Part shown: one piece after another, positions 18,861 through 39,903 of the stretch
Position numbering within the stretch: position 1 is the first letter of the stretch
Layout of the letters: each line of letters begins with the position of its first letter
Source of the DNA: Pseudodesulfovibrio sp.
Lineage (GTDB): Bacteria; Desulfobacterota; Desulfovibrionia; Desulfovibrionales; Desulfovibrionaceae
DNA: 40,958 nt
Direction: 5' to 3'
NCBI GenBank assembly: GCA_016342345.1
Contig: JAEINO010000029.1
Location: 1-40,958, forward strand
Program-made: the position numbers and the translations under genes
Notes under the pieces: model-generated
The model's database searches: none
What the model was told of the DNA's origin: nothing
Seen by the model: the letters and a program-made list of their open reading frames with translations, nothing else

Positions 18861-18878
18861 ATTAGTTTCCTCCAATAT

Positions 18879-25150: not shown

Positions 25151-25190
25151 TAAAACAAAAAAGCGGCTTACGATTTTCATCGTAAGCCGC
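25151..25190 (-). terminator. Orphan terminator, probably the original tRNA-Leu terminator
   Basis: On the minus strand, AGCGGCTTACGA and TCGTAAGCCGCT form a perfect 12-bp stem followed by TTTTTTGTTTT. It sits just left of the left att copy, exactly where the 3' side of the leftward tRNA-Leu would lie without the island. The only leftward gene nearby (RTX) starts further left, so it has no other obvious client. Confidence 0.8.
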
Positions 25191-25201
25191 TAATTTCATT
25201 C

Positions 25202-25223
25202 TGGTACAAGGCGGGGCCTTGAA
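25202..25223. repeat. Left attachment site (attL), degenerate tRNA-Leu 3' end
   Basis: TGGTACAAGGCGGGGCCTTG plus AA matches the right copy at 38356-38378 except for one missing C and one A-to-C change. It is the displaced 3' end of the tRNA-Leu gene. Confidence 0.8.
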
Positions 25224-25276
25224 TAAACAAACTAAATGCTAGTTTTTATTAATAAATTAAAATTCGATTTCAATAT

Positions 25277-25297
25277 CTACGCACAAATCTACTCACA
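25277..25297 (+). repeat. Left arm-type repeats, CTAC(G/T)CACA x2
   Basis: CTACGCACA (25277-25285) and CTACTCACA (25289-25297) lie 12 bases apart. The same 9-mer, at the same 12-base spacing, occurs at the right end (38221 and 38233). They are candidate integrase arm-binding sites. Confidence 0.6.
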
Positions 25298-25354
25298 TCA
25301 GCAGTTTTTTTCATATTTCTTCACCCTTTTTAAGGACTCCGAAAACCCCTCACA

Positions 25355-25508
25355 CATACGCACGCATAGTATTTGGTAACGAAGCTCTTTTTATAGAGTC
25401 AAAAAACTCTCCACTTCCGCACCTCTTCATCGTTGCCATTCCCTTTCATTTGCGCCATACCCATATCAATTAATGTATACACGGCACCATGCCATTACAT
25501 ACGCACGC
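25355..25508 (+). repeat. CATACGCACGC direct repeats near the left end
   Basis: The 11-mer CATACGCACGC occurs at 25355-25365 and 25498-25508. A 9-base match CATACGCAC occurs on the minus strand at 38255-38247, just upstream of the integrase. They are candidate binding sites for integrase, excisionase or the AlpA-like protein. Confidence 0.5.
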
Positions 25509-25526
25509 TGAAAATGGAGCCATCCA

Positions 25527-28500
25527 ATGACCGCCCTTCAAAAACTCCTCGATACCTACCGCGAAGCCGCTGCCTCTGAACGTGAGAAAGGGACTTACTT
25601 TGAAGAACTAACTATCTGCTATCTTCGCAACGAGGCCACCTACAAAGACTTGTATAGTGACGTGTGGACATATTCCGAATGGGCAAAGCTTCAAGGGCTG
25701 GATAAGCAGGACACCGGCATTGATCTTGTGGCGAAGACACGCGGCACGGACGAATTTCATGCTATCCAGTGTAAACTCTATGCCGAGGACCACACGCTGC
25801 AAAAGAGCGACATAGACAGTTTTTTTACCGCTTCCGGCAAAAAATATTTCACAAATCGTATTATCGTTTGCACCACGAACAAGTGGAGCAAGCCCGCTGA
25901 AGAATCTCTCAGTGACCAGCACCCGCCGGTCAATAAAATTGATCTTCACGATCTTGAGAGTAGTCAAATTGACTGGTCTGCTTACCAACCCAAGGCCGAG
26001 CCGGTCTTTAAGCCGCAAAAGGTATTACGTCCCCACCAGCAGGACGCATACGATGCCGTTAAAAAGGGATTGAGAACCGCCGACCGTGGCAAGCTCATTA
26101 TGGCTTGCGGAACTGGTAAGACATTCACCAGTCTGAAAATTGCCGAAGGGCTGGCAGGCAAAGGCAAGCGTGTCTTGTTCATGGTGCCGAGCCTTGCCCT
26201 GCTTTCCCAAACCCTCACGGAATGGACGCAGGAAAGCGCAACGCCGCTACATAGCTTTGCCGTATGTTCGGATAGTGACGTGGGCAAAAAACGCAAAAAG
26301 GACGACGACAGCGTACAGGTGTTTACCCATGAATTGCGCTACCCCGCCACCACGCAACCGGACAAGCTGGCAAAGGAAATGGACAAACGCCACGACAGCC
26401 AGCACATGAGCGTGGTGTTTTCCACCTATCACTCCATCGACGTACTGAACGCGGCCCAGTATGAATACGACTTGCCGGAATTCGACCTGATTATTTGCGA
26501 TGAAGCGCATAGAACCACAGGCGCGACCTTTGCCGAAGATGATGAAAGCGCGTTCGTCAAGGTCCATGAAAACCGTTTCGTCAAAGCTACAAAGCGTGTC
26601 TACATGACCGCTACCCCACGCCTCTATGGGGATACGGCAAAAGCCACCGCCGAACGCGACGACATTGTGCTTTGCTCCATGGACGACGAAAAGCAATACG
26701 GCAACGACCTTTACGTCATTAACTTTTCCGAAGCCGTCAAACGCGGCCTGTTGTGCGATTACAAGGTGCTGGTTCTGGCTGTGGATGAAAACCATGTCAG
26801 CCGCCGTATTCAAGATTTGCTTTCGGACGACAACAATCAACTCAAGGTTGACGATGCTGCCAAAATCATTGGTTGCTGGAAGGCTCTTTCAAAGCAGGAT
26901 GTGGCCGACGACCTTGTGGACGATGCCGACCCAATGAAACGGGCCGTTGCCTTTTGCCAGGTTATCGAGATTGCGAAAAATACACGCAAGCACAAAGTCA
27001 GCTCGAAAAACATTGCGGGCATGTTTGAAGAGGTTGTCAACGCCTACCAAAAGACTGAGGAGAATGAAGTTGCTTCCTCTCTCATCTGCAAGGCCGAACA
27101 TGTAGATGGCTCCATGAACGCCAGCCAGAAGGGAGCAAAGCTCGACTGGCTTCGGGCTGAAATGCCGGAAAACACCTGCCGAATATTAAGCAACGTCCGT
27201 TGCCTTTCCGAAGGCGTGGACGTTCCCGCGTTGGATGCCGTCTTGTTTCTCACTCCCCGCAATTCACAGGTTGACGTGGTTCAGTCCGTGGGGCGTGTCA
27301 TGCGAAACGCTCCGGGTAAGCAGCGCGGCTATGTCATTCTCCCCGTGGTCATTCCGGCGGGCAAGGAAGCCCATGAAGCCCTGAATGACAACGTGACTTA
27401 TAAAGTCGTCTGGCAGGTATTGCAGGCCTTGCGTTCGCACGATGACCGCTTTGATGCGGGTGTAAACCAAATCGACATCAACGGCCCCAATAAAAAACAA
27501 ATTGAAATTATCTCCATTACCGACAAGATCAACGCAAAGACCGCCGCAAAGCAGGCAGACACCGGAAGAGGTTCTTGTACTATTGGTGAAGCTGAAACGT
27601 CCCGGCCCGACCCCATAGAAAAACAGCTCACCTTTGAAATAAGCGACTTTGAACGCGCCATTTATGCCAAACTGGTTCAGAAGTGCGGCAACCGCCACCA
27701 CTGGGAAGACTGGGCAAATGACATTGCCAAGATTGCCCAGACCCATATTGCCCGGATTCACACGATTCTCGATGACGAAAGCCACGTAAAGGAACGCAAG
27801 GCGTTTCACGACTTTGCCGAAGAGTTGCGGGACGATCTCAATGACTCAATCAGTGACGACGAGGTTATTGAAATGCTGGCTCAGCATCTCATTACAAAGC
27901 CGGTCTTTGATGCCTTGTTTGAAGGCTACAGTTTTGCCCAGAGCAACCCCATTTCACAGGCCATGCAAGGGGTTCTGGATTCCTTGCAAGAGCATAGGCT
28001 GGACAAGGAAGCCGACACACTGGAACGGTTCTATGACAGCGTAAAATTGCGAGCTTCGGGCATTGACAATGCCGAAGGCAAACAGAAAATCGTGGTCGAA
28101 CTCTATGACAAATTTTTCCGCAACGCCTTTCCGAGAATGACCGAACGCCTCGGCATCGTGTACACGCCGGTCGAGGTGGTGGATTTCATCATTCACAGCG
28201 TCAATGACGTGCTGAAAAGCGAATTCGGCCAGACGCTGGGCAGCGAGGGCGTGCATATCATCGACCCGTTTACTGGCACCGGCACGTTTATCACCCGTCT
28301 TATGCAAAGCGGTTTGATCTCACTGGATCAACTCCCGCACAAGTACAAGCATGAGATTCACGCCAATGAAATTGTCTTGCTGGCCTACTACATAGCGGCC
28401 ATCAACATTGAGGCGGTCTACCACACCCTCATGGGCGGCAAGGGCGAATATGAACCGTTCGAGGGCATTTGCCTGACTGACACTTTTCAGTTGTATGAAA

Positions 28501-30425
28501 AGGACGACCTTATAAGCGTGGCTCTTGAAGACAACAGCGAGCGAAGGAAGAGACAAAAAGAATTGGATATTCGGGTTATTATGGGAAACCCGCCGTATTC
28601 GGCTGGGCAAACGAGTGCCAATGATAATAATCAAAATGTTAGTTATCCATCTTTAGATGGCAACATCCGTAACACTTATGCAGATAAATCAACCGCAACT
28701 AACAAGAATGCGCTTTATAATAGCTATATAAGGGCTATTCGCTGGGCTTCGGACCGCCTTGGGGATGATGGTGTTATAGGTTTTGTTTCCGGTTCAGGGT
28801 TTATTGAAAAGCCAGCTATGGATGGCATGAGAAAATGTCTTTGCCATGAATTCAGCAGTATTCACGTGCTAAACTTGCGCGGCGACATACGAAAAAACAT
28901 GTTGAGCAAAGGTCGGGCAAAAGAGGGACAAAACATTTTTGGTAGTGGCAGCATGACCGGAATTGCCGTGACTTTATTTATCAAAAATTCTCATGCAAAT
29001 AAACGTGGACAGATTTTTTATCACAACATTGGCGACGATTTAAGCGAGTCTGAAAAGTTAGAAAAACTCAGTATTTTTAAAAGTATGCAAGGCGTAACAG
29101 ATGCCAATAGCTGGGAAAGAATTACGCCTGACGAGCATGGTGATTGGCTAAATCTGCGAGATGATAGCTTTACTGACAGTCTCATTTTAGGAGACAAAAA
29201 AAATGATAATTTCAAGATGTTTGATAATTACTCAAGAGGGGTTGCAACAGGACGTGATGCTTGGTGCTGTAATGCTTCAAAGGGGAATTTAGCTATAAAC
29301 ATTAGTAGTATGATTGCGTTTTACAATAATGAAGTTGAACGTTTTAACCAGCTTCATACTGGTTTGAGTAGGAAGGATCGAGAAAAGATAATTAATGATT
29401 TTACTGATAATGACCCCACTCAAATAAGTTGGAACCGATCTTTGAAGCAGGAGCTTGCAAAGAACTCGTTTTTTGAATTTGACAAGAAAAGTTTAACAAC
29501 TAGTTTGTACCGTCCATTTACAAAACAATGGTTGTATTTTAATCGCCGTTTTAACGATATGATTTACCAAATGCCTCGAATTTTTCCAGATTTATCGGTA
29601 GATAATCAAGTGATTTGTATCTCTGGAAAGGGGAGCAGAAACGGCATGTCTGTTCTCATAAGCAACACTATTGTAGATTTAAATTCTCTTGAGGCTGGCT
29701 CCCAGTGCTTCCCTCTCTACCTCTATGAAGAGGAAAAACCCGCCAAAAACCAAAAGCAAGCCAGCCTCTTTGACGAACCGAAAGCCAAAGAAGCTAAGCA
29801 CATCAAACGCGATGCCATAACCGACGAGGGTTTGCAGGAATTTCAGCAAGCCTATCCCGGCGAATCCATCAGCAAGGAAGATATTTTCTATTACGTGTAC
29901 GGCTTGCTCCATTCCCAGGATTACCGGGAGCGGTTCAAGAATAACCTGACCAAAGAGCTGCCGCGTATTCCATGCGTGAAAACCGCTGCCGATTTCCACG
30001 CATTCAGCAAGGCTGGCCGTGATCTGGCCGAACTGCACCTGAACTATGAGACGGTCGAGCAATACCCGCTGACCATCGAGACGAGCGGCAAGGAACTGAC
30101 CGACGAACACTACCGCGTAATCAAGATGAAGTACGGCAAGGGCAAGGACAAAACCACGCTCATATACAATGCCCACATAACGCTGAAAGGCATCCCGCTG
30201 GAAGCCTATGAATACGTTGTGAACGGCAAACCGGCCCTCGACTGGGTTGTGGAACGCCAATGCGTCAAGACGGACCCCAAAAGCGGCATAACCAACGACG
30301 CCAACGACTGGGCAATCGACACAATGAATAACCCACGCTACCCGCTGGAACTCTTCATGCGCGTGGTAACGGTCAGCCTCGAAACAATGAAGATAGTGAA
30401 CGCGCTTCCGGCGTTGGATATTTAA
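25527..30425 (+). CDS. Single-chain Type ISP restriction-modification enzyme
   Basis: 1632 residues, one polypeptide with nuclease, translocase and methyltransferase. Residues about 20-115 form an Mrr-like PD-(D/E)XK nuclease (E27, D66 in GIDLVAK, Q81-C-K83). The SF2 helicase follows: Walker A ACGTGKT at 193-199, DEAH at 325-328, TATPRLYG, then SEGVDVPALD and QSVGRVMR. A coupler reaches about residue 840. The N6-adenine methyltransferase has motif I DPFTGTGT (913-920) and motif IV NPPY (1021-1024). A target-recognition region follows. The order matches LlaGI/LlaBIII-type enzymes, which methylate one strand and cut after head-to-head collision of translocating enzymes. GGAG lies seven bases before the ATG. 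All motifs are intact, so it is probably active. Codon use becomes AT-rich from about 28560 to 29690. Confidence 0.93.
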   Translation: MTALQKLLDTYREAAASEREKGTYFEELTICYLRNEATYKDLYSDVWTYSEWAKLQGLDKQDTGIDLVAKTRGTDEFHAIQCKLYAEDHTLQKSDIDSFFTASGKKYFTNRIIVCTTNKWSKPAEESLSDQHPPVNKIDLHDLESSQIDWSAYQPKAEPVFKPQKVLRPHQQDAYDAVKKGLRTADRGKLIMACGTGKTFTSLKIAEGLAGKGKRVLFMVPSLALLSQTLTEWTQESATPLHSFAVCSDSDVGKKRKKDDDSVQVFTHELRYPATTQPDKLAKEMDKRHDSQHMSVVFSTYHSIDVLNAAQYEYDLPEFDLIICDEAHRTTGATFAEDDESAFVKVHENRFVKATKRVYMTATPRLYGDTAKATAERDDIVLCSMDDEKQYGNDLYVINFSEAVKRGLLCDYKVLVLAVDENHVSRRIQDLLSDDNNQLKVDDAAKIIGCWKALSKQDVADDLVDDADPMKRAVAFCQVIEIAKNTRKHKVSSKNIAGMFEEVVNAYQKTEENEVASSLICKAEHVDGSMNASQKGAKLDWLRAEMPENTCRILSNVRCLSEGVDVPALDAVLFLTPRNSQVDVVQSVGRVMRNAPGKQRGYVILPVVIPAGKEAHEALNDNVTYKVVWQVLQALRSHDDRFDAGVNQIDINGPNKKQIEIISITDKINAKTAAKQADTGRGSCTIGEAETSRPDPIEKQLTFEISDFERAIYAKLVQKCGNRHHWEDWANDIAKIAQTHIARIHTILDDESHVKERKAFHDFAEELRDDLNDSISDDEVIEMLAQHLITKPVFDALFEGYSFAQSNPISQAMQGVLDSLQEHRLDKEADTLERFYDSVKLRASGIDNAEGKQKIVVELYDKFFRNAFPRMTERLGIVYTPVEVVDFIIHSVNDVLKSEFGQTLGSEGVHIIDPFTGTGTFITRLMQSGLISLDQLPHKYKHEIHANEIVLLAYYIAAINIEAVYHTLMGGKGEYEPFEGICLTDTFQLYEKDDLISVALEDNSERRKRQKELDIRVIMGNPPYSAGQTSANDNNQNVSYPSLDGNIRNTYADKSTATNKNALYNSYIRAIRWASDRLGDDGVIGFVSGSGFIEKPAMDGMRKCLCHEFSSIHVLNLRGDIRKNMLSKGRAKEGQNIFGSGSMTGIAVTLFIKNSHANKRGQIFYHNIGDDLSESEKLEKLSIFKSMQGVTDANSWERITPDEHGDWLNLRDDSFTDSLILGDKKNDNFKMFDNYSRGVATGRDAWCCNASKGNLAINISSMIAFYNNEVERFNQLHTGLSRKDREKIINDFTDNDPTQISWNRSLKQELAKNSFFEFDKKSLTTSLYRPFTKQWLYFNRRFNDMIYQMPRIFPDLSVDNQVICISGKGSRNGMSVLISNTIVDLNSLEAGSQCFPLYLYEEEKPAKNQKQASLFDEPKAKEAKHIKRDAITDEGLQEFQQAYPGESISKEDIFYYVYGLLHSQDYRERFKNNLTKELPRIPCVKTAADFHAFSKAGRDLAELHLNYETVEQYPLTIETSGKELTDEHYRVIKMKYGKGKDKTTLIYNAHITLKGIPLEAYEYVVNGKPALDWVVERQCVKTDPKSGITNDANDWAIDTMNNPRYPLELFMRVVTVSLETMKIVNALPALDI

Positions 30426-30429
30426 TTGA

Positions 30430-30606
30430 TATGCAATTCGTATTACCCAACGGCCCGACATCCCCGAATCTGTCCTTGAGGCTCAGCGTACAGGGGATCT
30501 CGTGTTTTTCTGTGGGGCAGGCTTTTCCAACTATATGGGGCTTCCAAATTTTCGTAATCTAGTAATATCAACAGACAAGGAAATGGAGGCCCCCTCCCTG
30601 AATTAG
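30430..30606 (+). pseudogene. SIR2-family protein remnant (N-terminal fragment)
   Basis: About 58 codons without a start; a TGA lies directly upstream in frame. They read PDIPESVLEAQRTGDLVFFC, then GAGFSNYMGLPNFRNLV, and stop at TAG 30604-30606. This is the NAD-binding opening of SIR2-like proteins found in anti-phage systems (GAGxS...GLPxFxxLV). The catalytic His and the whole remainder are missing. It starts 4 bases after the restriction gene stop, so a former two-gene unit is likely. Confidence 0.75.
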
Positions 30607-30711
30607 ATAGCCTAGATCCCTCGGTTGCTAAACGAGTACGCTCAGAAACAGGGCGAGCTTGTCCAGATGAGATTGGAAAAACCCGTGAAGCATGATCAAA
30701 GGAGGCTGCCC

Positions 30712-31440
30712 ATGAACTACAAACACATTCCCCAAGATCCCAAGGACAACCTGCTGCCTGGCATCAAGTTCAAGACTAAAGCCCGCAAGAAATACGAGCG
30801 CGCAATGTGGCCAACCATGCGCCAGGACCAGCACACACTCATACCAGTTGAAGATATCGCTCCGCCTCAGGATTACTGCAAAGTGGGAGGCCGGGTGTTT
30901 AACGTTTCTCGCATGGGAAGATGGAACAACGAGACGATATGGGCTTTCTATCGTGCCGTGTGGAAAGAGAAGAGGATTGTCGGGAAGCCGTGGTTAGAAG
31001 ATGCATTGCTTCAGTGGCAATTCATGGCTTCTGATCTTTGGCGCGAACTCTTTGCCGAAGAAAAGAAAGTTAAACTCTCAAAGCGCTTTGAGGCTTTCAA
31101 AACAAAATTTGTGGAATGGGCCAACAACCTCACGCCAGAGAAAGAAGCCGCTCTCCTGAAAGAAATCAAACAACTTGATGAAGACCGCCAGTGGCGATTG
31201 ATCCGTAGTCTTATAGAAGCCAAACGCTATAGGAGAAGGACGCGCAATGAATACCCCAAACGCCCGGTTGCAGACGATGATCCTTTCTGGCCTGCAATAC
31301 GAGATCAGTTGAAAGATTGGTGTGACAATATGACTGATGAACAAGATGGCGACGATTTTTGCCAATTCGCGCTCAAGCTACTCGGCTCGAACGGGATGCG
31401 GTACTACAAGCATTTCAATGACGGGGCGTACTGGAGGTAA
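30712..31440 (+). CDS. Unknown island protein, 242 residues
   Basis: Not recognised. The start ATG at 30712 has AAGGAGG seven bases upstream; a reading from 30664 or 30625 is possible but less likely. The protein is soluble and rich in Lys, Arg, Trp and Glu. It has a Trp-rich central part (RMGRWNNETIWAFYRAVWKE ... LLQWQFMASDLWRELFAEEKK) and a basic segment (EAKRYRRRTRNEYPKR), so nucleic-acid contact is possible. No catalytic motif is seen. It follows the Type ISP gene and the SIR2 remnant and may be cargo. Confidence 0.7.
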   Translation: MNYKHIPQDPKDNLLPGIKFKTKARKKYERAMWPTMRQDQHTLIPVEDIAPPQDYCKVGGRVFNVSRMGRWNNETIWAFYRAVWKEKRIVGKPWLEDALLQWQFMASDLWRELFAEEKKVKLSKRFEAFKTKFVEWANNLTPEKEAALLKEIKQLDEDRQWRLIRSLIEAKRYRRRTRNEYPKRPVADDDPFWPAIRDQLKDWCDNMTDEQDGDDFCQFALKLLGSNGMRYYKHFNDGAYWR

Positions 31441-31588
31441 AAACGAAAGCCCTGCGGATTCAGGGACCTCAGTGGGCTGCAATTGCCCACAGGTATGAAT
31501 CAACAGGACTAAAAAAGTGATACGCTAGAACCACAAATCCTCCCAAGGTGACCATGACAAGGCAAGAAGCCTTGTGGCCCGTCCCAAA

Positions 31589-31615
31589 CGCAATTTAAGG
31601 ATTGCGCACTCTTTT
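31589..31615 (+). terminator. Possible terminator after the unknown 242-residue gene
   Basis: CGCAAT and ATTGCG pair around TTAAGG and are followed by CACTCTTTT. A second strong hairpin, ACAAGGC-AAGAA-GCCTTGT (31557-31575), lies just before it without a T-run. Both are between convergent genes. Confidence 0.45.
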
Positions 31616-31627
31616 AGAAAACGTCAA

Positions 31628-32071
31628 TCAAGATAATTTCCTTTCCGGCTTAGGCTCATCCCACGGCACACCAGAGACTTCAACCAATTCCGCGGTCGTT
31701 ACAAACCAGGGAGACTGTTCGTCACTGATACGAGCAAACACCTTCCCTTGAGTAAAGGCCCCACCGTTGACCACATACCAGAGGCAGAAATACGGCTCAC
31801 TCAGTCCCTTTAGCTCAAAGCCATATGAACTACCTCGACCAAGGTCTTCACTTGTTAAAGGACGGGTTCTGTAAAGTTCTGAACCTGCAAACATTCCATC
31901 GTCACAGTCCGAAAGCAAAACTATCTCCATTGTGGCATCGCCCTTGAAGCTCTCTTCGACTTCAACACCGATTACCAATCGCTTCCGCTCTTCACGGACC
32001 TCGACATATCCTGAAAAACATGTCTCCCGTATGGGCTGATATAGACTCAATCCAATTTCTGACGTTTTCAT
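31628..32071 (-). CDS. Unknown protein, 147 residues, paired with an ankyrin protein
   Basis: Not recognised. It is a soluble, mostly beta-rich acidic protein with no signal or membrane segment (GYVEVREERKRLVIGVEVEE ... FCLWYVVNGGAFTQGKVFARI). Its start overlaps the ankyrin-gene stop by 4 bases (ATGA), so the two are translated together. Small soluble proteins paired this way are often immunity or antitoxin proteins, but nothing in the sequence proves it. Confidence 0.7.
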   Translation of the reverse strand: MKTSEIGLSLYQPIRETCFSGYVEVREERKRLVIGVEVEESFKGDATMEIVLLSDCDDGMFAGSELYRTRPLTSEDLGRGSSYGFELKGLSEPYFCLWYVVNGGAFTQGKVFARISDEQSPWFVTTAELVEVSGVPWDEPKPERKLS

Positions 32072-32538
32072 TCTTTAGCCTCCGGGATAGTCGCTCCGGC
32101 CCCTACAAGCAAGTCATAAACATCATCATATTCGTTCCGTACTGAACTTTCTGCCATTGAGTCCAGAGCGGCATGGTCAAGAGCATCAGACCCATCGGCT
32201 TCAGCAGAAAGGTTTGGATCTCCTCCATGGTCAAGGATCAACCGCATACCTTCAACCCCTTCATGTACTGCATAGTACATAGCATGCTCACCTTCGGGAT
32301 CGATTATGTTGGGGTCAGCCCCATGCTCTAACAGCCACCTTGCCCATCGTATACTCGTCTTCCGAGATATGCCTTGCCGAAAAGCCATAATCAAAGCAGT
32401 GCCCCCGACCTCTTTACCTACGGCATTAATATCTGCACCTTCCGCAAATAGCTGCTCGGCTTTTTTGTAGTCGAATTTTTCTGAAGCTTCCAGAAAATCC
32501 AAATCAATTTGTCTTGTCGTCCATGGTGTTCTTCTCAT
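32068..32538 (-). CDS. Ankyrin-repeat protein
   Basis: 156 residues from the ATG at 32538, which has GAAGG four bases upstream; a start at 32559 is also possible. About three ankyrin repeats are seen: FDYKKAEQLFAEGADINAVG, the WARWLLEHGADPNIIDPEGE and HAMYYAVHEG part, and GMRLILDHGGDPNLSAEADG with SDALDHAAL. Ankyrin repeats bind proteins. There is no enzymatic domain. It is the first gene of a two-gene unit inside the island; its partner lies downstream. Confidence 0.85.
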   Translation of the reverse strand: MRRTPWTTRQIDLDFLEASEKFDYKKAEQLFAEGADINAVGKEVGGTALIMAFRQGISRKTSIRWARWLLEHGADPNIIDPEGEHAMYYAVHEGVEGMRLILDHGGDPNLSAEADGSDALDHAALDSMAESSVRNEYDDVYDLLVGAGATIPEAKE

Positions 32539-32601
32539 AAGACCTTCTCCATATTCCAACCAACTCCCCCCCCAAGCCGTTAAGCAACACGAGGGCTAAG
32601 T

Positions 32602-32631
32602 CTTATATCTTAATGACAACACGACTGTCTA
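32602..32631 (-). promoter_or_regulatory. Possible promoter of the ankyrin two-gene unit
   Basis: On the minus strand, TAGACA (32631-32626) and TATAAG (32607-32602) are 18 bases apart, some 65 bases before the ankyrin start. The match is moderate. Confidence 0.4.
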
Positions 32632-32743
32632 TTTGATTGCCCCACCTCTGCCAGATCAGACTTCAGACGAAGGGCTTCTTTCTGCTTGAAGTCCTCCAGT
32701 GCCACCCAACTGTTCCCGTCGCTTTTTCCCAAAGCAGTATCAA

Positions 32744-32947
32744 ATGCCAGATCAGGAGGTCCAGCACATTGGCCTCGCCGCCGACTCTGGGGTCTCGCAG
32801 CGAACTATTCAAAAGGCCCGAGATTACCGAATCGAGTCCTGTACGCTACGAACTCTGTCAAAAATTGCTGAAGTCCTTGACTGGCCCGTCAAAGATTTGT
32901 TTAAAGAAAAAAGAACAATACAGAAACGGGGTAAAAAAAGTGATTAG
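32744..32947 (+). CDS. Short XRE-type helix-turn-helix protein
   Basis: 67 residues from the ATG at 32744; a longer in-frame ATG is at 32699. The core IGLAADSGVSQRTIQKARDY followed by TLRTLSKIAEVLDWPVKDLF is a Cro/CI-type DNA-binding domain, with the first helix short. The end is basic (RTIQKRGKKSD). No good ribosome site precedes 32744; a strong AGGAGGT lies just inside the frame, 7 bases before an ATT codon. It could be the island's repressor. It is the only rightward gene between two leftward units. Confidence 0.65.
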   Translation: MPDQEVQHIGLAADSGVSQRTIQKARDYRIESCTLRTLSKIAEVLDWPVKDLFKEKRTIQKRGKKSD

Positions 32948-32970
32948 AATTATTAGATCCTGAGCCCCCC

Positions 32971-33480
32971 CTACTCCTTTATCTTCTCCTCCTCGTTCTC
33001 TCTCCAAATACGATCTATGACGGAGTTCATGACTTCGATCGGTCCGCCATCCTTGCCGGTTATTTCATGTTTGGTGGTGAACAGACCTAGATGCTTGCCT
33101 ATCAATTCACAGCCTCGAAGAGCTCCATTGCTATTAAAAATATAAGCCGGGACCATTTCACCATCTAGATTCTCAACAAGCACATGGCGCCCGCTACGGT
33201 CTTTCACAGGCTCGGACTGCATACATCTGTCAATAACCGTTGAGATGTCCTTAAGAACTTGATCTTGCGAGATTCTTGTACGCTCTTGTCTTTCTTTCTT
33301 CGCCATCTCAAGAACTTCTTGGATGTAAACATTTGACAACAGCCTTGTGGCTTGCTGCCTGGCAGTTTGATAAGAGTACCCGGCTCGAATTGCGGCCTGG
33401 GTTGCATTCAAATCAACCAGGTACTCTTGAACGAAAACCTGCTGCTTCGCATTCAATTTGCACTTTTGATTATGACTCAT
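32971..33480 (-). CDS. terS: Phage terminase small subunit
   Basis: 169 residues from the ATG at 33480, which overlaps the stop of the upstream gene (ATGA). The N-terminal Terminase_2-type DNA-binding region is clear: LNAKQQVFVQEYLVDLNATQ, then AAIRAGYSYQTARQQATRLL and VYIQEVLEMAKKER. It recognises the packaging site and delivers DNA to the large subunit. No large subunit is in the island, so packaging would depend on a helper phage's motor. It is the last gene of the leftward replication unit. Confidence 0.85.
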   Translation of the reverse strand: MSHNQKCKLNAKQQVFVQEYLVDLNATQAAIRAGYSYQTARQQATRLLSNVYIQEVLEMAKKERQERTRISQDQVLKDISTVIDRCMQSEPVKDRSGRHVLVENLDGEMVPAYIFNSNGALRGCELIGKHLGLFTTKHEITGKDGGPIEVMNSVIDRIWRENEEEKIKE

Positions 33481-33893
33481 CAATACTCTCCTTCTACTAT
33501 GTTCCATGCTTCGTCTTGCTTACATCCCTCACAAACCGGCAAGATCTCAATTCTAAATGTTACCCCGATGGTCTTCTCAATATACACATCACTAGCCGTC
33601 GAATCACAAAAACAACATTTGCTTCTGATCTTCTTCCCCCAAAGTAACTTTCGCCCGCGGTGGATCAGCTCCATGCCTTGAGCATCCACGAGATCAAGTG
33701 CTATTGTAATTTTCCCATCTTCATCACCAAGCTGATGAGCCTCAGTCACATCTTGAGACTCTCTTCCTGTAACGAAGGTCTCCGGTGGTGAAGTGGCTGT
33801 TTTAAGAGTTGTAGACCCTCGCTTCATCTCATTGACAAACTTACGGACGTCCACGGATTCATACGTTCCTGTTTCTTGATTATAAGCGCGCAT
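33480..33893 (-). CDS. Zinc-ribbon-like island protein of unknown function
   Basis: 137 residues, not recognised. The C-terminal half has SKCCFCDSTASDVY and then LPVCEGCKQDEAW, so two CxxC pairs form a probable zinc ribbon. The start is 2 bases after the stop of the ATPase gene, and its stop overlaps the terS start. Position suggests a role in replication or packaging control. Confidence 0.7.
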   Translation of the reverse strand: MRAYNQETGTYESVDVRKFVNEMKRGSTTLKTATSPPETFVTGRESQDVTEAHQLGDEDGKITIALDLVDAQGMELIHRGRKLLWGKKIRSKCCFCDSTASDVYIEKTIGVTFRIEILPVCEGCKQDEAWNIVEGEY

Positions 33894-33895
33894 AG

Positions 33896-34876
33896 TTACC
33901 CCCCATATCCAGTGTTTCTGTTACTCATCTGACGAAGACGAGCTTCACTACACCGCGATCGAGTGCGGGCTGCTCTTTGCTCTTTGGTCACGAAAGCCCA
34001 ACCACATCCTTCGATGGGCACAAGCGTTGCACCAGTCTGGATTTTAAAGTCGATCTCTTGGCCTTGCGGGTTCGGATATGAAACTGGAAATTTGCATTTC
34101 GTAATGCGAATGTAGTTGGCATGCCCGTCATAAAACAGAGAAAGAGCAAGGCGGGCCTTTTCAAGAGTAAAATCACCGCCACGGGCTAGATCTTCCCCTT
34201 TCTTTTTCTGCAAACAAATGACAGCAATGCCATCTTGAAGCTCGTTGTGTATGGCTTCTATCTTCTTCCCAATAAGCCAAAAGTCGTCGAGATTTTCCAT
34301 AAAGTCGATCACGTTAAACCCATTGGCATCGATCACCAGATGAAAGTCACGAGAGCGTGAATATGGTTCTAGGCCGGTCCACGTTTTCGCTCGGCCATCG
34401 ATGGACAATAGCCGTCCACGCATTTCGGCGGGATGCATTTCGGAATTGAACAGCTTGATGCATTTATGTGCACCGCCTTGCATCTGGAGATTCCGATAGA
34501 TCATGTTCATGACGAAGGCCGTTTTTCCCGCGTTGGACTCCCCTGCCAGAATAATAATATTTCCAGGAGAAACGTAGCTCTTCTCATGTAGATCCAAGGG
34601 AAGCCATATGGGATAGGTCTGAGCTTGAGCGTTAATCCAATCCATCGGCTCAAGGTTAGTATCAATCCGATGATACCAACCGTTGCGCTTTTCATCCCGC
34701 GCTATGGTGCGCTGCTTGACGAGTTCATCAAGAATCTGATCACGTAATTGAACATTCCCGAGACATGTCTCTTTTGCGAACACAAATGCAGAGAATTGTC
34801 CTTGCGCTCTATTAATCCACTGTTTGCCAATCTCAATAGCCCGCACCAATTCGTCACCTTCATAATCAGGCTGCAT
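33896..34876 (-). CDS. DnaB-like helicase ATPase domain protein (RecA fold)
   Basis: 326 residues from the ATG at 34876; a start at 34906 lies inside the preceding gene. Residues about 15-70 may be a small helical or winged-helix part. A RecA-type ATPase follows: SPGNIIILAGESNAGKTAFV (Walker A GESNAGKT), FNSEMHPAEMRGRLL (equivalent to the DnaB SLEM segment), AVICLQKKKGEDLARGGDF (Gln-containing motif), and DFKIQTGATLVP. This is the C-terminal half of a DnaB-type replicative helicase in shape. The missing DnaB N-terminal domain appears to be encoded by the preceding overlapping gene. Confidence 0.75.
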   Translation of the reverse strand: MQPDYEGDELVRAIEIGKQWINRAQGQFSAFVFAKETCLGNVQLRDQILDELVKQRTIARDEKRNGWYHRIDTNLEPMDWINAQAQTYPIWLPLDLHEKSYVSPGNIIILAGESNAGKTAFVMNMIYRNLQMQGGAHKCIKLFNSEMHPAEMRGRLLSIDGRAKTWTGLEPYSRSRDFHLVIDANGFNVIDFMENLDDFWLIGKKIEAIHNELQDGIAVICLQKKKGEDLARGGDFTLEKARLALSLFYDGHANYIRITKCKFPVSYPNPQGQEIDFKIQTGATLVPIEGCGWAFVTKEQRAARTRSRCSEARLRQMSNRNTGYGG

Positions 34877-35207
34877 ACTCGGCCTCCTGCTCAGACCTGA
34901 CGGCAAGTTTATCTAGATAGATTTGTGCCATACGCGCATCGATATTCGCACCATGGAAAAATACATCCACAAGGCCTCGCAGACATGGACTGTCATACCC
35001 AAGGTACTGAGCTACAATTGTAGGGATCATCTTCTCGCCAGATTCTACAACAGAACGCATAGCGGTAAAGATTTGATACCCACACTCGCCAGGCAGAAAT
35101 AAAGTTCCGTCTGCGGAAGATATGAAGGTTTCGTTTTGAACAAGGGCGCGAAGAGCCCACAAGCGCAACTCAGGAAAATCCATAACGTCAAAAATGCTAC
35201 TGCGCAT
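34866..35207 (-). CDS. DnaB N-terminal-domain-like protein
   Basis: 113 residues from the ATG at 35207; the larger frame to 35414 is a shadow inside the upstream replication gene. The pattern ELRLWALRALVQNETF ... CGYQIFTAMRSVVESGEKM ... LRGLVDVFFHGANIDARMAQ ... LAVRSEQEAE resembles the helical N-terminal domain of DnaB, which makes the hexamer collar and binds primase. It overlaps the previous gene by 11 bases and the ATPase gene by 11 bases. Recognition rests on a visual pattern only. Confidence 0.6.
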   Translation of the reverse strand: MRSSIFDVMDFPELRLWALRALVQNETFISSADGTLFLPGECGYQIFTAMRSVVESGEKMIPTIVAQYLGYDSPCLRGLVDVFFHGANIDARMAQIYLDKLAVRSEQEAEYAA

Positions 35208-35961
35208 ATTTTCCCTCGACGGTCTTGATGAAGTTTTGTGGACGAACAAGCCATTCAAGATCAGCCTGAAATAGTTTACTTTCTTTCCCGTTATCGGCCG
35301 TACCCATGAGCCAAGGGCATGTGCGGACGTATTCGAAAAAACCTTTCCACCAATCGAGGTTCTGCCGTGCAGGGTCTTCCCTCCAACGAGAACGCAGATA
35401 AGATTGGCGAACACTATTCCAAATGCGCACTCTTCTAAGCTCAGGCAGTATATGATGATAAAGTTGGACTATTTCCTGATGAGGGCAAGAACTAGGCTGA
35501 TTATTGCCGTCGGCAATATCATTGTCGCCAGATACTACGATAGTAGTATCCTTCTTACTTCTTAACTTCTTAACTTCTTGGATGTGGTTAGAACGCTGGT
35601 TAAATAGCTGGTTAATTGGCTGGTTGTCTGGCTGGTTACCAAATACTTTTTCACTTTGATAAAGTGAGTAATTGCAAACAGTAACGACCGAAAATCTGTT
35701 GGTTGGCTCAATCTCTATTTCACCTGTCGATTCAAGATGCCTTAAACTGGTGCGTATAGATTGTTCTGAAATACCAGTTTCAGCAGAGAGCTGTTTACGG
35801 CCTGTAATAAATTGACCAGGACGAAGAGCATGACCACGCCACTTGCTCGGCCTATAGTTGGCCTTGAGAAGTAAATGGATAAACAAGTGCAGTGTTTTCG
35901 AATCTCTATACCACTCCCAACCACAGAGTTTTTTGTGCAGTTTGATCCAACCGTTCGACAT
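35197..35961 (-). CDS. Phage replication initiator (O/DnaD-like helix-turn-helix protein)
   Basis: 254 residues. The N-terminus GWIKLHKKLCGWEWYRDSKT, LHLFIHLLLKANYRPSKWRG, PGQFITGRKQLSAETGISEQ and SIRTSLRHLESTGEIEIEPT form the winged-helix block common in phage replisome organisers. The middle is Asn/Gln-rich and low-complexity (GNQPDNQPINQLFNQRSNHIQ). The C-terminal part (IWNSVRQSYLRSRWREDPAR ... FKTVEGKYAQ-like end) resembles a helicase-loader contact region. It probably binds the island origin and recruits the helicase encoded next. It starts 8 bases after alpA. Confidence 0.82.
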   Translation of the reverse strand: MSNGWIKLHKKLCGWEWYRDSKTLHLFIHLLLKANYRPSKWRGHALRPGQFITGRKQLSAETGISEQSIRTSLRHLESTGEIEIEPTNRFSVVTVCNYSLYQSEKVFGNQPDNQPINQLFNQRSNHIQEVKKLRSKKDTTIVVSGDNDIADGNNQPSSCPHQEIVQLYHHILPELRRVRIWNSVRQSYLRSRWREDPARQNLDWWKGFFEYVRTCPWLMGTADNGKESKLFQADLEWLVRPQNFIKTVEGKYAQ

Positions 35962-35969
35962 GGCGCCCT

Positions 35970-36170
35970 CTACTGCTCACTGCCAAGGCGCTCGATCAGA
36001 TCTCGTATGTCTTCAGATTTCCAAGCAGTTGTCCTAGGCCCCAGTTTTACTGGTTTTGGATAACGACCTTCGGCTACGCCAGCCCACCATGAGGACTTGC
36101 CGATAGGGATCACCTTCAACACTTGGGGAAGCCGGAGAAATCCGGTAGCAGGAAGATATGTAGCTTGCAT
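35970..36170 (-). CDS. alpA: AlpA-family regulator/excisionase-like protein
   Basis: 66 residues, a small MerR-like winged helix. FLRLPQVLKVIPIGKSSWWA, then EGRYPKPVKLGPRTTAWKSE and DIRDLIERL are the standard AlpA features. Such proteins activate int or excision and mark P4/PICI-like elements. TAGGAG lies six bases before the ATG. It heads the leftward replication unit alpA-rep-dnaB-like-terS. Confidence 0.92.
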   Translation of the reverse strand: MQATYLPATGFLRLPQVLKVIPIGKSSWWAGVAEGRYPKPVKLGPRTTAWKSEDIRDLIERLGSEQ

Positions 36171-36280
36171 GCTATACTCCTAGGCTTGTGACAGTCGGGG
36201 AAGTCCCAACCCATCCGTCTACACCTAAGAACAGAAACAGCTTGCTTTGGTAAAAGGGGGATAATAGCTTTTTTTGAAAG

Positions 36281-36952
36281 TTATTTTCCCTTCTTATAAT
36301 TCTTTATTATATAATCAGCTAAAGTTGCTCTTTTAATTCCAGCTGATGTGTACTCCAAAAGAGTATATGTAAAATCAAGAAATTTACCCTCATAACCATC
36401 AGCAGCATATGCAGAGCGACAGCAACCAGACCCAATACCTCCGGCTGATAAATACACCTCATGTAGAGATCCCAAAAAAAGCAACCTTGCTATATTACGG
36501 TGGCGCCCGGGTTTCCCCTTAACCAACTTAGCGGCTTCTGCATTGTCTTTCCATCGATTGAGATATCCGGCCACATCAAAATCATCGGGAAATCGATCCA
36601 CCTCAAGATCTCCACCCGCCCAAAGAGAATTCGGCGCAGAACATGTCCAAACAGCTTGTTTTACAGACTCTAAATGGCTTTCCTCACGATTTTCCAAGTG
36701 GGTAGGCAATATAGATGTAAGCAAATCGCAAGCGTCAATAACTCTTCCTAACTCATCCCTGACATCCTCTGCAGGAATATTCTGAAATACTTCTAGATCA
36801 AATTCGTACCTAGAAAGGTAATAGCGAATGTCCTTTTTCAACTCCTCATTGAACTCTAAACCAGTTAAGGATTCCAAATTTTCAAAGTCAACATGAGCAA
36901 ACTCATCCAATTGGGCATCTTTAATTACTACATTTCTCGAATACTGACTCAT
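36281..36952 (-). CDS. Unknown protein coupled to the integrase
   Basis: 223 residues, not recognised. The N-terminus is acidic and helical (DAQLDEFAHVDFENLESLTG ... LKKDIRYYLSRYEFDLEVF). The C-terminus has GSGCCRSAYAADGYEGKF and a basic end (DYIIKNYKKGK). There is no signal or membrane segment. Its ATG overlaps the integrase stop (ATGA), so it is translated with the integrase and may help excision or control it. Confidence 0.7.
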   Translation of the reverse strand: MSQYSRNVVIKDAQLDEFAHVDFENLESLTGLEFNEELKKDIRYYLSRYEFDLEVFQNIPAEDVRDELGRVIDACDLLTSILPTHLENREESHLESVKQAVWTCSAPNSLWAGGDLEVDRFPDDFDVAGYLNRWKDNAEAAKLVKGKPGRHRNIARLLFLGSLHEVYLSAGGIGSGCCRSAYAADGYEGKFLDFTYTLLEYTSAGIKRATLADYIIKNYKKGK

Positions 36953-38172
36953 GCTTCTTCCCCAACTATACTTGCTAATAACGGAATCACCTTTCCTCCA
37001 GCCTTGAGACTATCCAAATAGTTCGCCCAAGCTTGCATCATCATTTTACGCTCAGGCAAATGCTCAGCGTAGTTATAGGCTGCTCTGACCTTATTCTCTT
37101 CGACATGGGCAAGTTGGCGTTCAATGTGGTCCGAATTGAAACCCATTTCATTGAGGTTCGTACTCGCCATGGAACGAAAACCGTGGCCTGACATTTCTTC
37201 CTTAGTATAGCCCATGCGCCGAAGTGCAGAAAGAACGGTATTGTTGCTCATGGCTCTTGCTGAGGACCGCTCTGAAGGGAACACATACTTGCCATGCCCA
37301 GTCACTAACCCAATTTCTCTTAGGACCTCGACACTTTGATGAGAGAGAGGGACAATGTGGGGCCGCTTCATTTTCATTTTCTCGGCAGGGATTCGCCACT
37401 CTTTGGCTTCAAGATTGATCTCCGACCATTCAGCATGGCGTAATTCACCAGGGCGAACAAATGTCAAAGACGCCAACTTCAATGCACATCGAGTAACCGG
37501 GCTACCTTGGTACTCATCGATAGAGCGAAGAAGGCCACCAATACCTTTGGGGTCGGTAATGCTGGCTCTGTGTTGTTCCTGTACAGGGGGAAGGATTCCG
37601 GCAAGATCAGGGACGGGGTTGTGGGTGATTAAGCCCATGGCAACAGCATAGCGCATAATTTCGCTAATTATGTTTTTAACTCGATGCCCTGTATGCAGTA
37701 TACCTAAGCTATCAAGACGAAGCAGGACTCGCCTCACTTGCGGAGCATCGACTTCACTTATCTGGATTGCTCCAATAAGAGGGAAAACGTGACTATCCAA
37801 ACGGCGTATTTTCCGAGATGCAGTTTCGTCGGACCATTTATGCCGAAACCTATCAAACCATTCACGCGCAACAACCTCAAAACGCCCCGCGCCCTCTGAA
37901 CTTGCACTTTGCGCCTTTCGAATGACTGCAGGGTCGACACCTCGCCTGAGATGCCGCTTCATCTCTTGGCAAGTAACCCTTGCATCCTGCAAGCTCTCAT
38001 CAGGCCAAGAACCTAGAGCCATCATCTTTGCCTTACCATCACAACGATACCGCAATCGCCACAGCTTTGACCCTGAGGGCGTGATCTCAATGCATAAGCC
38101 GTGAGCATCAGCCACGCGGTACAGCTTATCCTTGGGCTTTAGGGATTCGATAGATTTGACCGTCAGGGGCAT
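36949..38172 (-). CDS. int: Tyrosine recombinase (P4-type integrase)
   Basis: 407 residues from the ATG at 38172, which has GGAGG five bases upstream; the ATG at 38184 contains that ribosome site and is rejected. Residues about 1-85 form the DUF4102 arm-binding domain (LTVKSIESLKPKDKLYRVAD). A core-binding domain follows, at about 95-180. The catalytic set is R240 (RPGELR), a Lys in KMKMKRPH, H330 and R333 (HGFRS), H356 (LAHVE) and the nucleophile Y366 (AAYNYAEHL). It inserts the island into the tRNA-Leu 3' end 184 bases to the right. All key residues are present, so it is probably active. Confidence 0.95.
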   Translation of the reverse strand: MPLTVKSIESLKPKDKLYRVADAHGLCIEITPSGSKLWRLRYRCDGKAKMMALGSWPDESLQDARVTCQEMKRHLRRGVDPAVIRKAQSASSEGAGRFEVVAREWFDRFRHKWSDETASRKIRRLDSHVFPLIGAIQISEVDAPQVRRVLLRLDSLGILHTGHRVKNIISEIMRYAVAMGLITHNPVPDLAGILPPVQEQHRASITDPKGIGGLLRSIDEYQGSPVTRCALKLASLTFVRPGELRHAEWSEINLEAKEWRIPAEKMKMKRPHIVPLSHQSVEVLREIGLVTGHGKYVFPSERSSARAMSNNTVLSALRRMGYTKEEMSGHGFRSMASTNLNEMGFNSDHIERQLAHVEENKVRAAYNYAEHLPERKMMMQAWANYLDSLKAGGKVIPLLASIVGEEA

Positions 38173-38191
38173 GAAAACCTCCATTGGCAGA

Positions 38192-38255
38192 TGTGAGTAG
38201 AAAGAATCAGAAAGACTTCTCTACTCACAGACCTACTCACAGAAGTGTGCGTATG
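38192..38255 (-). repeat. Right arm-type repeats and integrase upstream region
   Basis: CTACTCACA occurs at 38221-38229 and 38233-38241 in plus orientation, 12 bases apart. It occurs once inverted at 38192-38200. GTGCGTATG (38247-38255) is the reverse of CATACGCAC seen at the left end. A TTGACA -35-like hexamer on the minus strand overlaps this element. The sites may serve both as arm sites and as operators of int. Confidence 0.6.
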
Positions 38256-38290
38256 TCAACGGACCGCTTTGGATGACTACGGACTACAAG

Positions 38291-38320
38291 AAACAAGAAA
38301 ACCCCCGTTATTCGGGGGCC
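38291..38320 (-). terminator. Terminator behind tRNA-Leu, island-supplied
   Basis: On the minus strand, CCCCCG-AATAA-CGGGGG is followed by TTTTCTTGTT. It lies 36 bases after the tRNA 3' end, inside the island, and replaces the displaced original terminator at 25151-25190. Confidence 0.8.
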
Positions 38321-38355
38321 TTCTGGACAATCTCGGACGAGTCCGGATATAAATA

Positions 38356-38378
38356 TGGTACCAAGGCGGGGACTTGAA
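38356..38378. repeat. Right attachment site (attR) within tRNA-Leu 3' end
   Basis: The last 23 bases of the tRNA gene, with CCA. The near-copy is at 25202-25223. The island brought or retained the sequence that keeps the tRNA intact. Confidence 0.8.
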
Positions 38379-38442
38379 CCCCGACGGGATTGCTCCCGGC
38401 GGATTTTGAATCCGCTGCGTCTACCAATTCCGCCACCCTGGC
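38356..38442 (-). tRNA. tRNA-Leu (anticodon CAA)
   Basis: 87 bases including an encoded CCA. It starts GCCAGGGTGGCGGAATTGGT on the minus strand. The anticodon stem-loop is GCGGA-TTCAAAA-TCCGC, so the anticodon is CAA (codon UUG). The long variable arm and the TTCAAGT T-loop are those of class II tRNA-Leu. It is the island's integration site. Confidence 0.95.
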
Positions 38443-38559
38443 ACGGGAGACGTTTACATAGAGCAGGTGGGGGCCTGCTGTCAATAATCTTGTCACATTA
38501 TCCGCTTGGTGATAGCACGAGCCTGCGGTTTGAATTTATTGCAGGGTTTAGGGTAAAAC

Positions 38560-39243
38560 ATGATTCCCATTGGTTCCATCGTCAACGCGCTCGCCATTAT
38601 CGGAGGCAGCCTCATAGGTTGTTGGCTGCAATCGCGCTTCCCAGAACGCATCAGGGCTATTGTTTTTCAAGGGCTGGGATTGTGCGTTTTGCTTATCGGC
38701 ATCCAAATGGCACTCAAGGTCGAGAATATTCTGATCGTCATTTTTTCCATATTGCTGGGGGGAATTACAGGCGAACTGGCAAGACTCGACACTCTGTTTG
38801 AGCGACTGGGCAACCGCTTCAAGAAAATCATCGGCTCAAAAAATGCCAAATTTACCGACGGACTAATCACCGCCTCGCTCATATACTGCATCGGGGCCAT
38901 GGCCATCATCGGCGCGCTTGAGGAAGGCATACGCGGCGACACCACCGTGCTCCTCACAAAATCAATTCTCGATGGATTCGCATCCGTGGCCCTGGCCGCT
39001 TCCTACGGGTCCGGGGTACTCTTCTCGTTCATTCCCGTACTGATATATCAAGGAGCCATGACCTTCGGAGCAGGATACTTCCAACAATATTTCTCGGAGC
39101 TCATGATAAGCCAAGTCACGGCCTGTGGCGGACTGCTCATCATCGGCATCGCCATCAACCTCCTGGAACTCAAGGAAATCAAACTGGCAAACCTGCTCCC
39201 GGCCCTCGGCTACGTGGTTGTCCTGACCCTTTGCTTCGGATAA
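38560..39243 (+). CDS. DUF554 (YqgA-like) inner-membrane protein
   Basis: 227 residues with about six to seven hydrophobic segments. IPIGSIVNALAIIGGSLIGC at the start, GLGLCVLLIGIQMAL, ILLGGITGEL and the ITASLIYCIGAMAIIGALEEG and SILDGFASVALAASYG parts are the family's typical run. Function is unknown; a transporter role has been guessed for the family. It is the first chromosomal gene right of the tRNA, transcribed away from it. Confidence 0.88.
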   Translation: MIPIGSIVNALAIIGGSLIGCWLQSRFPERIRAIVFQGLGLCVLLIGIQMALKVENILIVIFSILLGGITGELARLDTLFERLGNRFKKIIGSKNAKFTDGLITASLIYCIGAMAIIGALEEGIRGDTTVLLTKSILDGFASVALAASYGSGVLFSFIPVLIYQGAMTFGAGYFQQYFSELMISQVTACGGLLIIGIAINLLELKEIKLANLLPALGYVVVLTLCFG

Positions 39244-39278
39244 CCAAACAGCCTCACAATTCCTGCACTGAAATTGAA

Positions 39279-39314
39279 AAAGTCCGCTCTCCGAGGAGAA
39301 CGGACTTTCTTTAA
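39279..39314. terminator. Terminator between convergent DUF554 and unknown gene
   Basis: AAAGTCCG and CGGACTTT form a stem around CTCTCCGAGGAGAA, which can itself fold. TCTTTA follows rightward and TTTTTC leftward, so it may serve both genes. Confidence 0.8.
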
Positions 39315-39327
39315 TCATCTGGCAAAA

Positions 39328-39822
39328 CTATTCGGCTTTCGCTTTTTCGGGCTTCTCAGCGGTTTTCTTTCCGCCACATCCGCCGCAACGGCTGGACTTC
39401 TTCAACTCTTCATCAGGCTCGACCGTGCGAATATCGTCTTCGGAATCGATCTGTTTCTTTAACAAGGCATATTCGATGACATCTTCAAGAATTTGTTGGC
39501 AATGCTTTGTCGGAATGAATTCACCAAGCATGGCCCTCTGAAAATCCGGCTTGTCAAAAGGCTTGGCCCAATAATTATGCTTGAGATAATGCCAAGCTCC
39601 TACATTAGGCACGTCAATGGCCGGGGTGACTTGACGCAGGGATACTTCCCATTTGGAATACTGATAGATATCATCCAAAGTCTCTTCGGGATAGCTCGAA
39701 TGCACATTACTCGCCTGAAACGAAACAACAACCTTGAAACCTACAGCTATTTCCTTGAACACTCTCCCGAACTCGTCGTGGCGGGAAGCTTCCACAAGCA
39801 ACTCTCTAAAATCCTTGGCCAT
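39328..39822 (-). CDS. Unknown protein with a Cys-Gly cluster near the C-terminus
   Basis: 164 residues, not recognised. It is soluble. AAGGAG lies seven bases before the ATG. The middle has DVPNVGAWHYLKHNYWAKPF and the C-terminal tail has SSRCGGCGGKKTAEKPEKAK, with two Cys in CGGCGG followed by a Lys/Ala/Glu/Pro tail. The CGGCGG could bind metal. No partner gene is obvious. Confidence 0.72.
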   Translation of the reverse strand: MAKDFRELLVEASRHDEFGRVFKEIAVGFKVVVSFQASNVHSSYPEETLDDIYQYSKWEVSLRQVTPAIDVPNVGAWHYLKHNYWAKPFDKPDFQRAMLGEFIPTKHCQQILEDVIEYALLKKQIDSEDDIRTVEPDEELKKSSRCGGCGGKKTAEKPEKAKAE

Positions 39823-39903
39823 TATACACTCCTTTCAATATTTTATATCAAAGTAGCGGCATAATCACTTAAATCCTACCCAACTTCAAGGGGTTTTCCG
39901 AAC

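Follow-up and report, generated by a model that had tools for sequence, protein, structure and literature searches.

What kind of element occupies the ~13 kb beside a tRNA-Leu gene in contig JAEINO010000029.1 of Pseudodesulfovibrio sp. (assembly GCA_016342345.1, 4.15 Mb in 149 contigs)? The window analysed here is the whole contig, 40,958 bases, and the island in question lies at ~25,202-38,378. Because it holds genes for integration, replication and packaging together with an anti-virus enzyme, and lacks particle-building genes, it most likely lives as a parasite of viruses while also protecting its own host. We favour, at a probability of about 0.7, the reading of its genes as those of a PICI-like phage satellite (PICI, phage-inducible chromosomal island). 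An earlier note on this DNA had proposed a satellite of a Desulfovibrio phage; the satellite part of that proposal is the part we retain, while naming a Desulfovibrio phage was too specific. We write PICI-like rather than PICI because the definition of a PICI also includes helper-dependent induction and packaging (PMC6092414). The window also holds dsrA and dsrB, so the host is a sulfate reducer, as the note had said.

The island is a clean insertion of ~13.15 kb at a specific attachment site, since its flanks are joined in relatives that lack it. By ARAGORN, the window has a single tRNA gene, which encodes tRNA-Leu(CAA) and occupies 38356-38442 on the minus strand; its 3' end (38356..38378) is the proximal attachment site, and a repeat scan placed the distal site, a copy of that end, at 25202..25223. 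The copy covers 23 nt with one mismatch and one gap (16 of 17 bases when ungapped) and scored 34, where the next-best unrelated position of that scan reached 21. In two island-free relatives, G003 and G015 (loci L158 and L159), both flanks adjoin with a 10-base overlap, at a junction that fits the distal copy: in L158, positions 14011-14069 correspond to window 25153-25211 and positions 14060-15583 to window 38356-39899, and L159 likewise shows joined flanks, the right-flank alignments reaching 39899/39901. The ~13.2 kb island in tRNA-Leu described earlier is therefore real. Its coding fraction is 91%, and its open reading frames (ORFs) are open.

From the tRNA, the gene order on the minus strand is integrase, orf223, AlpA, O-like initiator, a short ORF, DnaB-like C-terminal piece, orf137 and terminase small subunit (TerS); beyond TerS stand a helix-turn-helix (HTH) gene on the opposite strand and then, back on the minus strand, an ankyrin gene and orf147; from the distal end the plus strand carries a Type ISP enzyme followed by orf271. 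A satellite of the PICI type has a specific attachment site, an integrase, AlpA, a replication module and, optionally, TerS (PMC6092414). Firstly, the tRNA-Leu(CAA) repeat and the empty site in G003 and G015 supply the attachment site expected of Gram-negative PICIs; secondly, Pfam and PHROGs matches identify a tyrosine integrase (36949..38184, minus strand; PF00589 3.6e-24, PF22022, PF13356) and an AlpA regulator/excisionase (35970..36170, minus; PF05930 9e-9); thirdly, there is an O-like replication initiator (35197..35961, minus; phrog_345 3e-30) with iterons, while a homologue of the published-type Pri-Rep was unmatched in Pfam and PHROGs; fourthly, TerS is of the Terminase_2 family (32971..33507, minus; PF03592 2.3e-27, phrog_51 5e-36), and its likely start, an ATG at 33480, overlaps the orf137 stop codon by one base. 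Pfam and PHROGs thus bear out the earlier calls of integrase, AlpA, initiator and TerS; the DnaB-like helicase piece (33896..34906, minus; PF03796 (DnaB_C) 5e-6, phrog_243 1e-6) reaches 26.5 bits for DnaB_C, slightly below the Pfam cut-off of 27.

Among the island ORFs scanned against Pfam and PHROGs, none matched the terminase large subunit (TerL), portal, major capsid, tail or lysis genes, and phrog_2 (TerL) had no match on the island's contig. The earlier statement that such genes are absent holds to that extent, yet it overlooked orf147, which resembles the phage head cement protein Bbp16. The main cargo, as the earlier note had it, is a Type ISP restriction-modification enzyme of 1,632 aa (25527..30425, plus; PF18135 5e-117, PF22240 2e-52, Mrr_cat_2), which scored 2407 bits against the PADLOC IIG model.

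Capsid-forming PICIs carry AlpA, integrase and TerS plus their own TerL, portal, protease and major capsid genes; the island shares the first three, whereas TerL, portal, protease and a major capsid gene were not found in it. With Gram-negative PICIs it shares integrase, AlpA, replication module, optional TerS and specific attachment site, and no TerL, portal, capsid or tail gene was found in it; it differs in its O-like initiator and DnaB-like piece with no matched Pri-Rep, its cement-protein-like gene and its large Type ISP cargo (PMC6092414). P4-like satellites likewise integrate, have a regulator of the AlpA type (Vis in P4) and carry defence cargo that varies (PMC9122126). None of the family names P4 alpha primase, Psu, Sid and Delta appeared among the Pfam or PHROGs matches of the island ORFs scanned. 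These four belong to the P4-like gene list, and the island departs from that type both in lacking matches to them and in carrying TerS, a gene that to our knowledge P4 does not have. Literature searches on satellites in Desulfovibrio and sulfate reducers found no description, as the earlier note had supposed, although absence from print is not established. If the reading is right, TerS-carrying phage satellites extend to sulfate-reducing bacteria.

The small terminase subunit and a candidate helper

Of 297 genomes from the order, 47, the host's included, have a relative of the island's TerS. The closest, in two genomes of the same genus (G014, 58% over 138 aa; G024, 52% over 139 aa), adjoin TerL in prophage-like loci, and the G024 locus has a head-tail adaptor/portal match, an SU10-type adaptor match and further head and tail genes by eye. 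Among the best 80 loci retained from an alignment search of IMG/VR, iterated profiles found TerL downstream in 60 of the 75 that had at least 1.5 kb of room; of ten read among the remaining 15, nine have a TerL-like ORF by eye and one was unjudgeable, and these loci are phage-like. A search of IMG/VR with single-sequence TerS patterns returned nothing. The same profiles found TerL in 21 of 30 loci of the order with ~1.3-1.5 kb downstream, and the nine without include the window. Relatives of this TerS thus normally lie upstream of TerL, and a TerS standing without TerL would be in keeping with a satellite.

The earlier note had asked whether TerS might be part of a prophage split by rearrangement, and whether the genome holds a prophage with a large terminase and a different TerS. 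No second TerS of the window's type matched in the host genome at E ≤ 1e-6, so the island's TerS is not a detached part of a prophage elsewhere. Host contig C43 does hold a prophage of the second kind, which encodes tail proteins, a major head protein and a head-tail adaptor as well as TerL and a TerS of phrog_309. Over 476 aa this TerL shares 47% identity with that of G024, and the C43 TerS has no detectable relation to the window's; the same cell therefore contains a terminase of the right clade that is served by another TerS. Host contigs C134 and C112 have partial matches to the G024/C43-type TerL clade (39-50%), and, by eye, C147 carries a further prophage, whose TerL-like gene falls outside that clade.

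These relationships single out the C43 enzyme, encoded in the island's own host, as a concrete candidate for the helper terminase with which the island's TerS may work. In the mechanism we propose, a helper phage would trigger excision of the island, and the initiator and helicase would multiply its DNA. The island's TerS would then displace the helper's TerS on a compatible TerL, directing island DNA into helper-made heads, which the cement-like orf147 product may bind or stabilise. The Type ISP enzyme would guard the host, and hence the island, against other phages.

Three other loci combine similar genes. L036, a 5.1 kb IMG/VR contig, has AlpA, a DnaB-like fusion and, by eye, TerS-like and TerL-like ORFs, and may be a fragment of a phage or of a capsid-forming satellite. 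In L194 (G157, 5000-11,900) and L190 (G276, 1-3500) a DnaB-like fusion protein lies beside a TerL-like ORF (by eye), with a prohead-protease-like ORF (by eye) in L194 in addition; these sister-genus loci may represent prophages or capsid-forming satellites.

Sibling islands and a second, unrelated TerS

In the genus, 14 of 36 genomes hold matches to the island's integrase, 19 in all at E ≤ 1e-40. Six copies (71-100% identity) lie at tRNA-Leu(CAA), in the window, G002, G022, G027, G030 and G018, the last being flanked by further tRNA 3'-end copies as the second island from its tRNA; seven more (51-54%) lie beside tRNA-Ser(TGA) in G001, G011, G018, G022, G028, G029 and G030. ORF lists were read for all 13 islands, for each sibling over at most its first 20 kb, the G029 island being truncated on an 8.5 kb contig. 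A distal attachment-site copy was found for both G018 islands, G011, the tRNA-Ser island of G022 and G028, and was not found for the tRNA-Leu islands of G002, G022 and G027, either island of G030 or G001.

Head or tail genes at this locus in close relatives would, according to the earlier note, have pointed to a decayed prophage. None was recognised in any sibling over the stretches read, the five tRNA-Leu siblings (G002, G018, G022, G027 and G030) included. Nor did phrog_2 match inside the 12 sibling islands, which come from 9 of the 13 genomes searched; this statement combines the model with ORF reading, as phrog_2 misses some TerL genes, for example that of host C147.

Most of the 13 islands combine an integrase, AlpA, a replication-like gene and defence-like cargo, and their recurrence suggests where the genus stores part of its phage defence. 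Relatives of the Type ISP enzyme occur in two of the five sibling tRNA-Leu islands, at 80% in G030 (L140) and 79% in G018 (L146), which fits the earlier proposal that the island pays its way with this enzyme. The G030 island has its ISP end and distal flank in common with the window, and from that alignment would measure ~8.9 kb, ending near L140:9350; an attachment-like match at L140:13368 fell within a large ORF and was dropped as a chance match. G018 carries, along with the ISP enzyme, Zorya ZorA/ZorB as well as a gene that matched restriction models; its L146 island (~697-19,788) also encodes a large primase-like protein (DUF927). The G002 cargo is a Type IIG enzyme with a cytosine methylase, and that of G022 consists of CRISPR-Cas-looking genes with an array (by eye).

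For the two TerS families searched, TerS was present in only two of the 13 islands, those of the window and G028. The G028 island (L008 5488 to L030 60) measures ~14.45 kb at tRNA-Ser(TGA) and lies between two perfect 25-nt repeats of that tRNA's 3' end. It has the window's core order of integrase, ORF, AlpA, initiator, ORF, DnaB-like gene, TerS and opposite-strand HTH gene, with identities of 51% for the integrase, 54% for AlpA, 44% for the DnaB-like protein and 65% for the HTH protein; it adds a small ORF between AlpA and initiator and a further one between TerS and HTH, and has no orf137 counterpart between DnaB and TerS. Its TerS (152 aa; phrog_4102 1.6e-16, phrog_309 7e-10; no Pfam match) has no detectable similarity to the window's and, at E ≤ 1e-5, was found among the 297 genomes of the order in G028 only. 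Two unrelated TerS genes in the same place behind a helicase suggest selection on packaging rather than two prophage decays. The G028 cargo is an Avs2-like protein (PADLOC 2.9e-123). Avs2 is said to sense TerL, which makes a TerS-bearing island with a TerL sensor an odd pair.

That TerS of the two families searched is confined to two islands, amid a family most of whose members pair integration and replication-like genes with defence-like cargo, could also be explained by an integrative defence island with no phage-borne transfer, moved by other routes, in which TerS and orf147 are passengers or anti-phage factors (TerS as a packaging inhibitor, for example). We consider this distinctly unlikely, since in the window TerS directly follows the helicase piece and orf137, its likely start overlapping the preceding stop codon, and since mutually dissimilar TerS genes occupy the position behind the helicase in two islands.

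Other islands with related integrases were compared more lightly: those of G006 C3, G033 C22 and G027 C12 by tblastn only, and those in G008, G031 and a second one in G002 as short search loci only. A further scan with the integrase gave 57 loci, of which 11 have an AlpA match and one a TerS match in the fetched stretch. At L010 (G006, ~7,063-12,597), a ~5.5 kb element with an integrase, a DnaB-like protein and four other ORFs sits between near-identical 55-nt copies of a tRNA-Phe end, and beyond it lie Type I restriction-modification-looking genes (by eye).

The Bbp16-like gene and the balance of readings

orf147 (31628..32071, minus) is a divergent Bbp16-like gene with weak to moderate support. 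It scored 28.7 bits against Bbp16 (PF21190), above the curated cut-off of 27.1, and had no match in PHROGs. Its sole PDB sequence match up to E 10 was the cementing protein of phage BPP-1 (3j4u chain H, E 0.88, weak alone). A profile of 23 Bbp16 relatives from the order, built from 23 of 30 fetched loci (seven were omitted where the script found no ORF in the expected frame), gave 17.2 bits (E 9e-4 for that set), as against a best score of 4.4 bits among 4,000 shuffled orf147 copies in which composition only was preserved. Aligning orf147 with the same Bbp16 alignment by hhalign gave a probability of just 18% (E 0.0013). Direct BLASTP against the Bbp16 member of L084 found nothing, no relatives of orf147 turned up in IMG/VR or named phages, and a single-sequence AlphaFold2 model, mostly strands with a mean predicted local distance difference test score (pLDDT) of 47, was unusable for the fold. 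Across the order 41 of 297 genomes, host included, matched Bbp16 at E ≤ 0.001, 35 of them above the cut-off; in the genus only the host did (1 of 36), with orf147 its only match. This set aside the C43 prophage as the source of the gene, the host genome having no other Bbp16 match.

The BPP-1 protein is a jelly-roll head protein required for infectious particles (PMC3863775). The family match slightly above the curated cut-off is the point of likeness; unlike Bbp16 at other loci, orf147 is highly divergent and has no adjoining major capsid gene, whereas 29 of the 30 fetched Bbp16 loci (the window's excluded, L084 itself counted) adjoin a relative of the L084 major-capsid-like gene. We regard orf147 as a likely, not secure, relative of cement proteins. 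If it serves as one, the satellite would carry a gene for head cement and none for a capsid. SaPIs (Staphylococcus aureus pathogenicity islands) and P4 encode capsid size-redirection proteins, and a cement protein would be a handle for capsid piracy unlike these.

The main rival reading is a decayed prophage. A temperate phage of BPP-1 type might have lost everything from TerL to the major capsid gene, together with all tail and lysis genes; its early region, TerS and the cement gene would remain, and the locus would have gained the ISP enzyme. TerS and then the cement gene follow each other on one strand here as in L084 (TerS, TerL, portal-like ORF, major capsid gene, Bbp16), and the replication genes have counterparts in prophages; yet no partial head or tail ORF was matched among the island ORFs scanned, the island's genes are open, and an opposite-strand HTH gene and the ankyrin gene separate TerS from orf147. 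The integrase and AlpA, moreover, are those of an island family without TerL matches, the ISP end is common to two sibling islands, and G028 has the same core layout with an unrelated TerS. Taken together, these features make a decayed prophage unlikely.

Several observations weigh against the satellite reading. TerS followed by a Bbp16-like gene is the order of a phage head module, as would remain after a deletion, and no BPP-1-type head genes were found in the searched prophage loci of the host genome or the genus. The replication module is not specific to satellites, because prophages have it too: the L009 prophage has a DnaB-like protein 44% identical to the island's, with TerL ~8 kb further on. 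The initiators of G028 and the window are only weakly alike (24%; both match phrog_2514), and among the best-ranked loci no window-type TerS was seen in an island of the other genomes in the order sample. An identity of 47% between large subunits is no proof that the island's TerS pairs with the C43 TerL. In favour of a PICI-like satellite are the attachment repeat with its empty site, the open ORFs, the sibling family free of TerL matches and the layout of G028.

A broader version of this reading is one that we hold tentatively and would not expect to prove correct: sulfate reducers would host a family of satellites that swap the TerS gene behind the helicase between islands, each island tracking a different helper terminase, and one member would add its own capsid cement protein. 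Such islands would commandeer both the helper's choice of DNA and the surface of its shell, and their defence cargo (Type ISP here, Avs2-like in G028) would strike competing phages.

Replication module, smaller genes and flanks

Iterons lie within the initiator gene in origins of the lambda type. The candidate origin at 35551..35637 (minus) lies likewise inside the island's initiator gene and comprises an array of five iterons of 12 bp (AACCAGCCANNN and variants) and, after them, a tract rich in purines and in AT. Its period score was 21, with at most 11.5 in 100 shuffles, which here too preserved composition only; of nine initiator genes put through this test, eight scored above their own 100 shuffles, the gene of sibling G002 being the one that did not. 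Arrays of 11-12 bp iterons also occur in O-like initiator genes of other phage-like loci (L031, L026 on host C147 and L025 on host C118), with repeat units unlike the island's.

The helicase piece contains GESNAGKT, which we take to be a Walker A-like motif; a scan of GTDB genome contigs with an alignment of the DnaB-like protein found no relative. Between initiator and helicase piece lies an ORF of ~113 aa (34866..35207, minus; the listed ORF is longer, to 35414) without a family match, with counterparts of 112 aa in L008 and 106 aa in L009 at the same place. Going by position and size, our guess is that it fills the slot of a DnaB N-terminal piece.

orf223 (36281..36952, minus) has tblastn matches of 22-29% identity in L022, L148, L149, L151 and L153, and several sibling islands have an ORF in the same slot between integrase and AlpA. 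The small HTH regulator (32699..32947, plus; PF13443) shares 65% identity over 55 aa with an ORF that L008 carries behind its TerS. Four further genes are candidates only for phage interference: orf147 itself; the 163-aa ankyrin-repeat gene (32068..32559, minus; PF12796 6.5e-17), which overlaps it by four bases; orf137 (33480..33893, minus), a Cys-containing ORF with no confident Pfam or PHROGs family; and orf271 (30625..31440, plus), with no match in Pfam, PADLOC or NCBIfam, a best PHROGs match at E 0.95 and no relatives in a plasmid search.

The left flank, at window 15910-20213 and 23534-24832, holds dsrA, dsrB, a dsrD-like ORF (recognised by eye, with no NCBIfam match), a cobyrinic acid a,c-diamide synthase gene and, close to the distal attachment site, a gene for an RTX-repeat protein.

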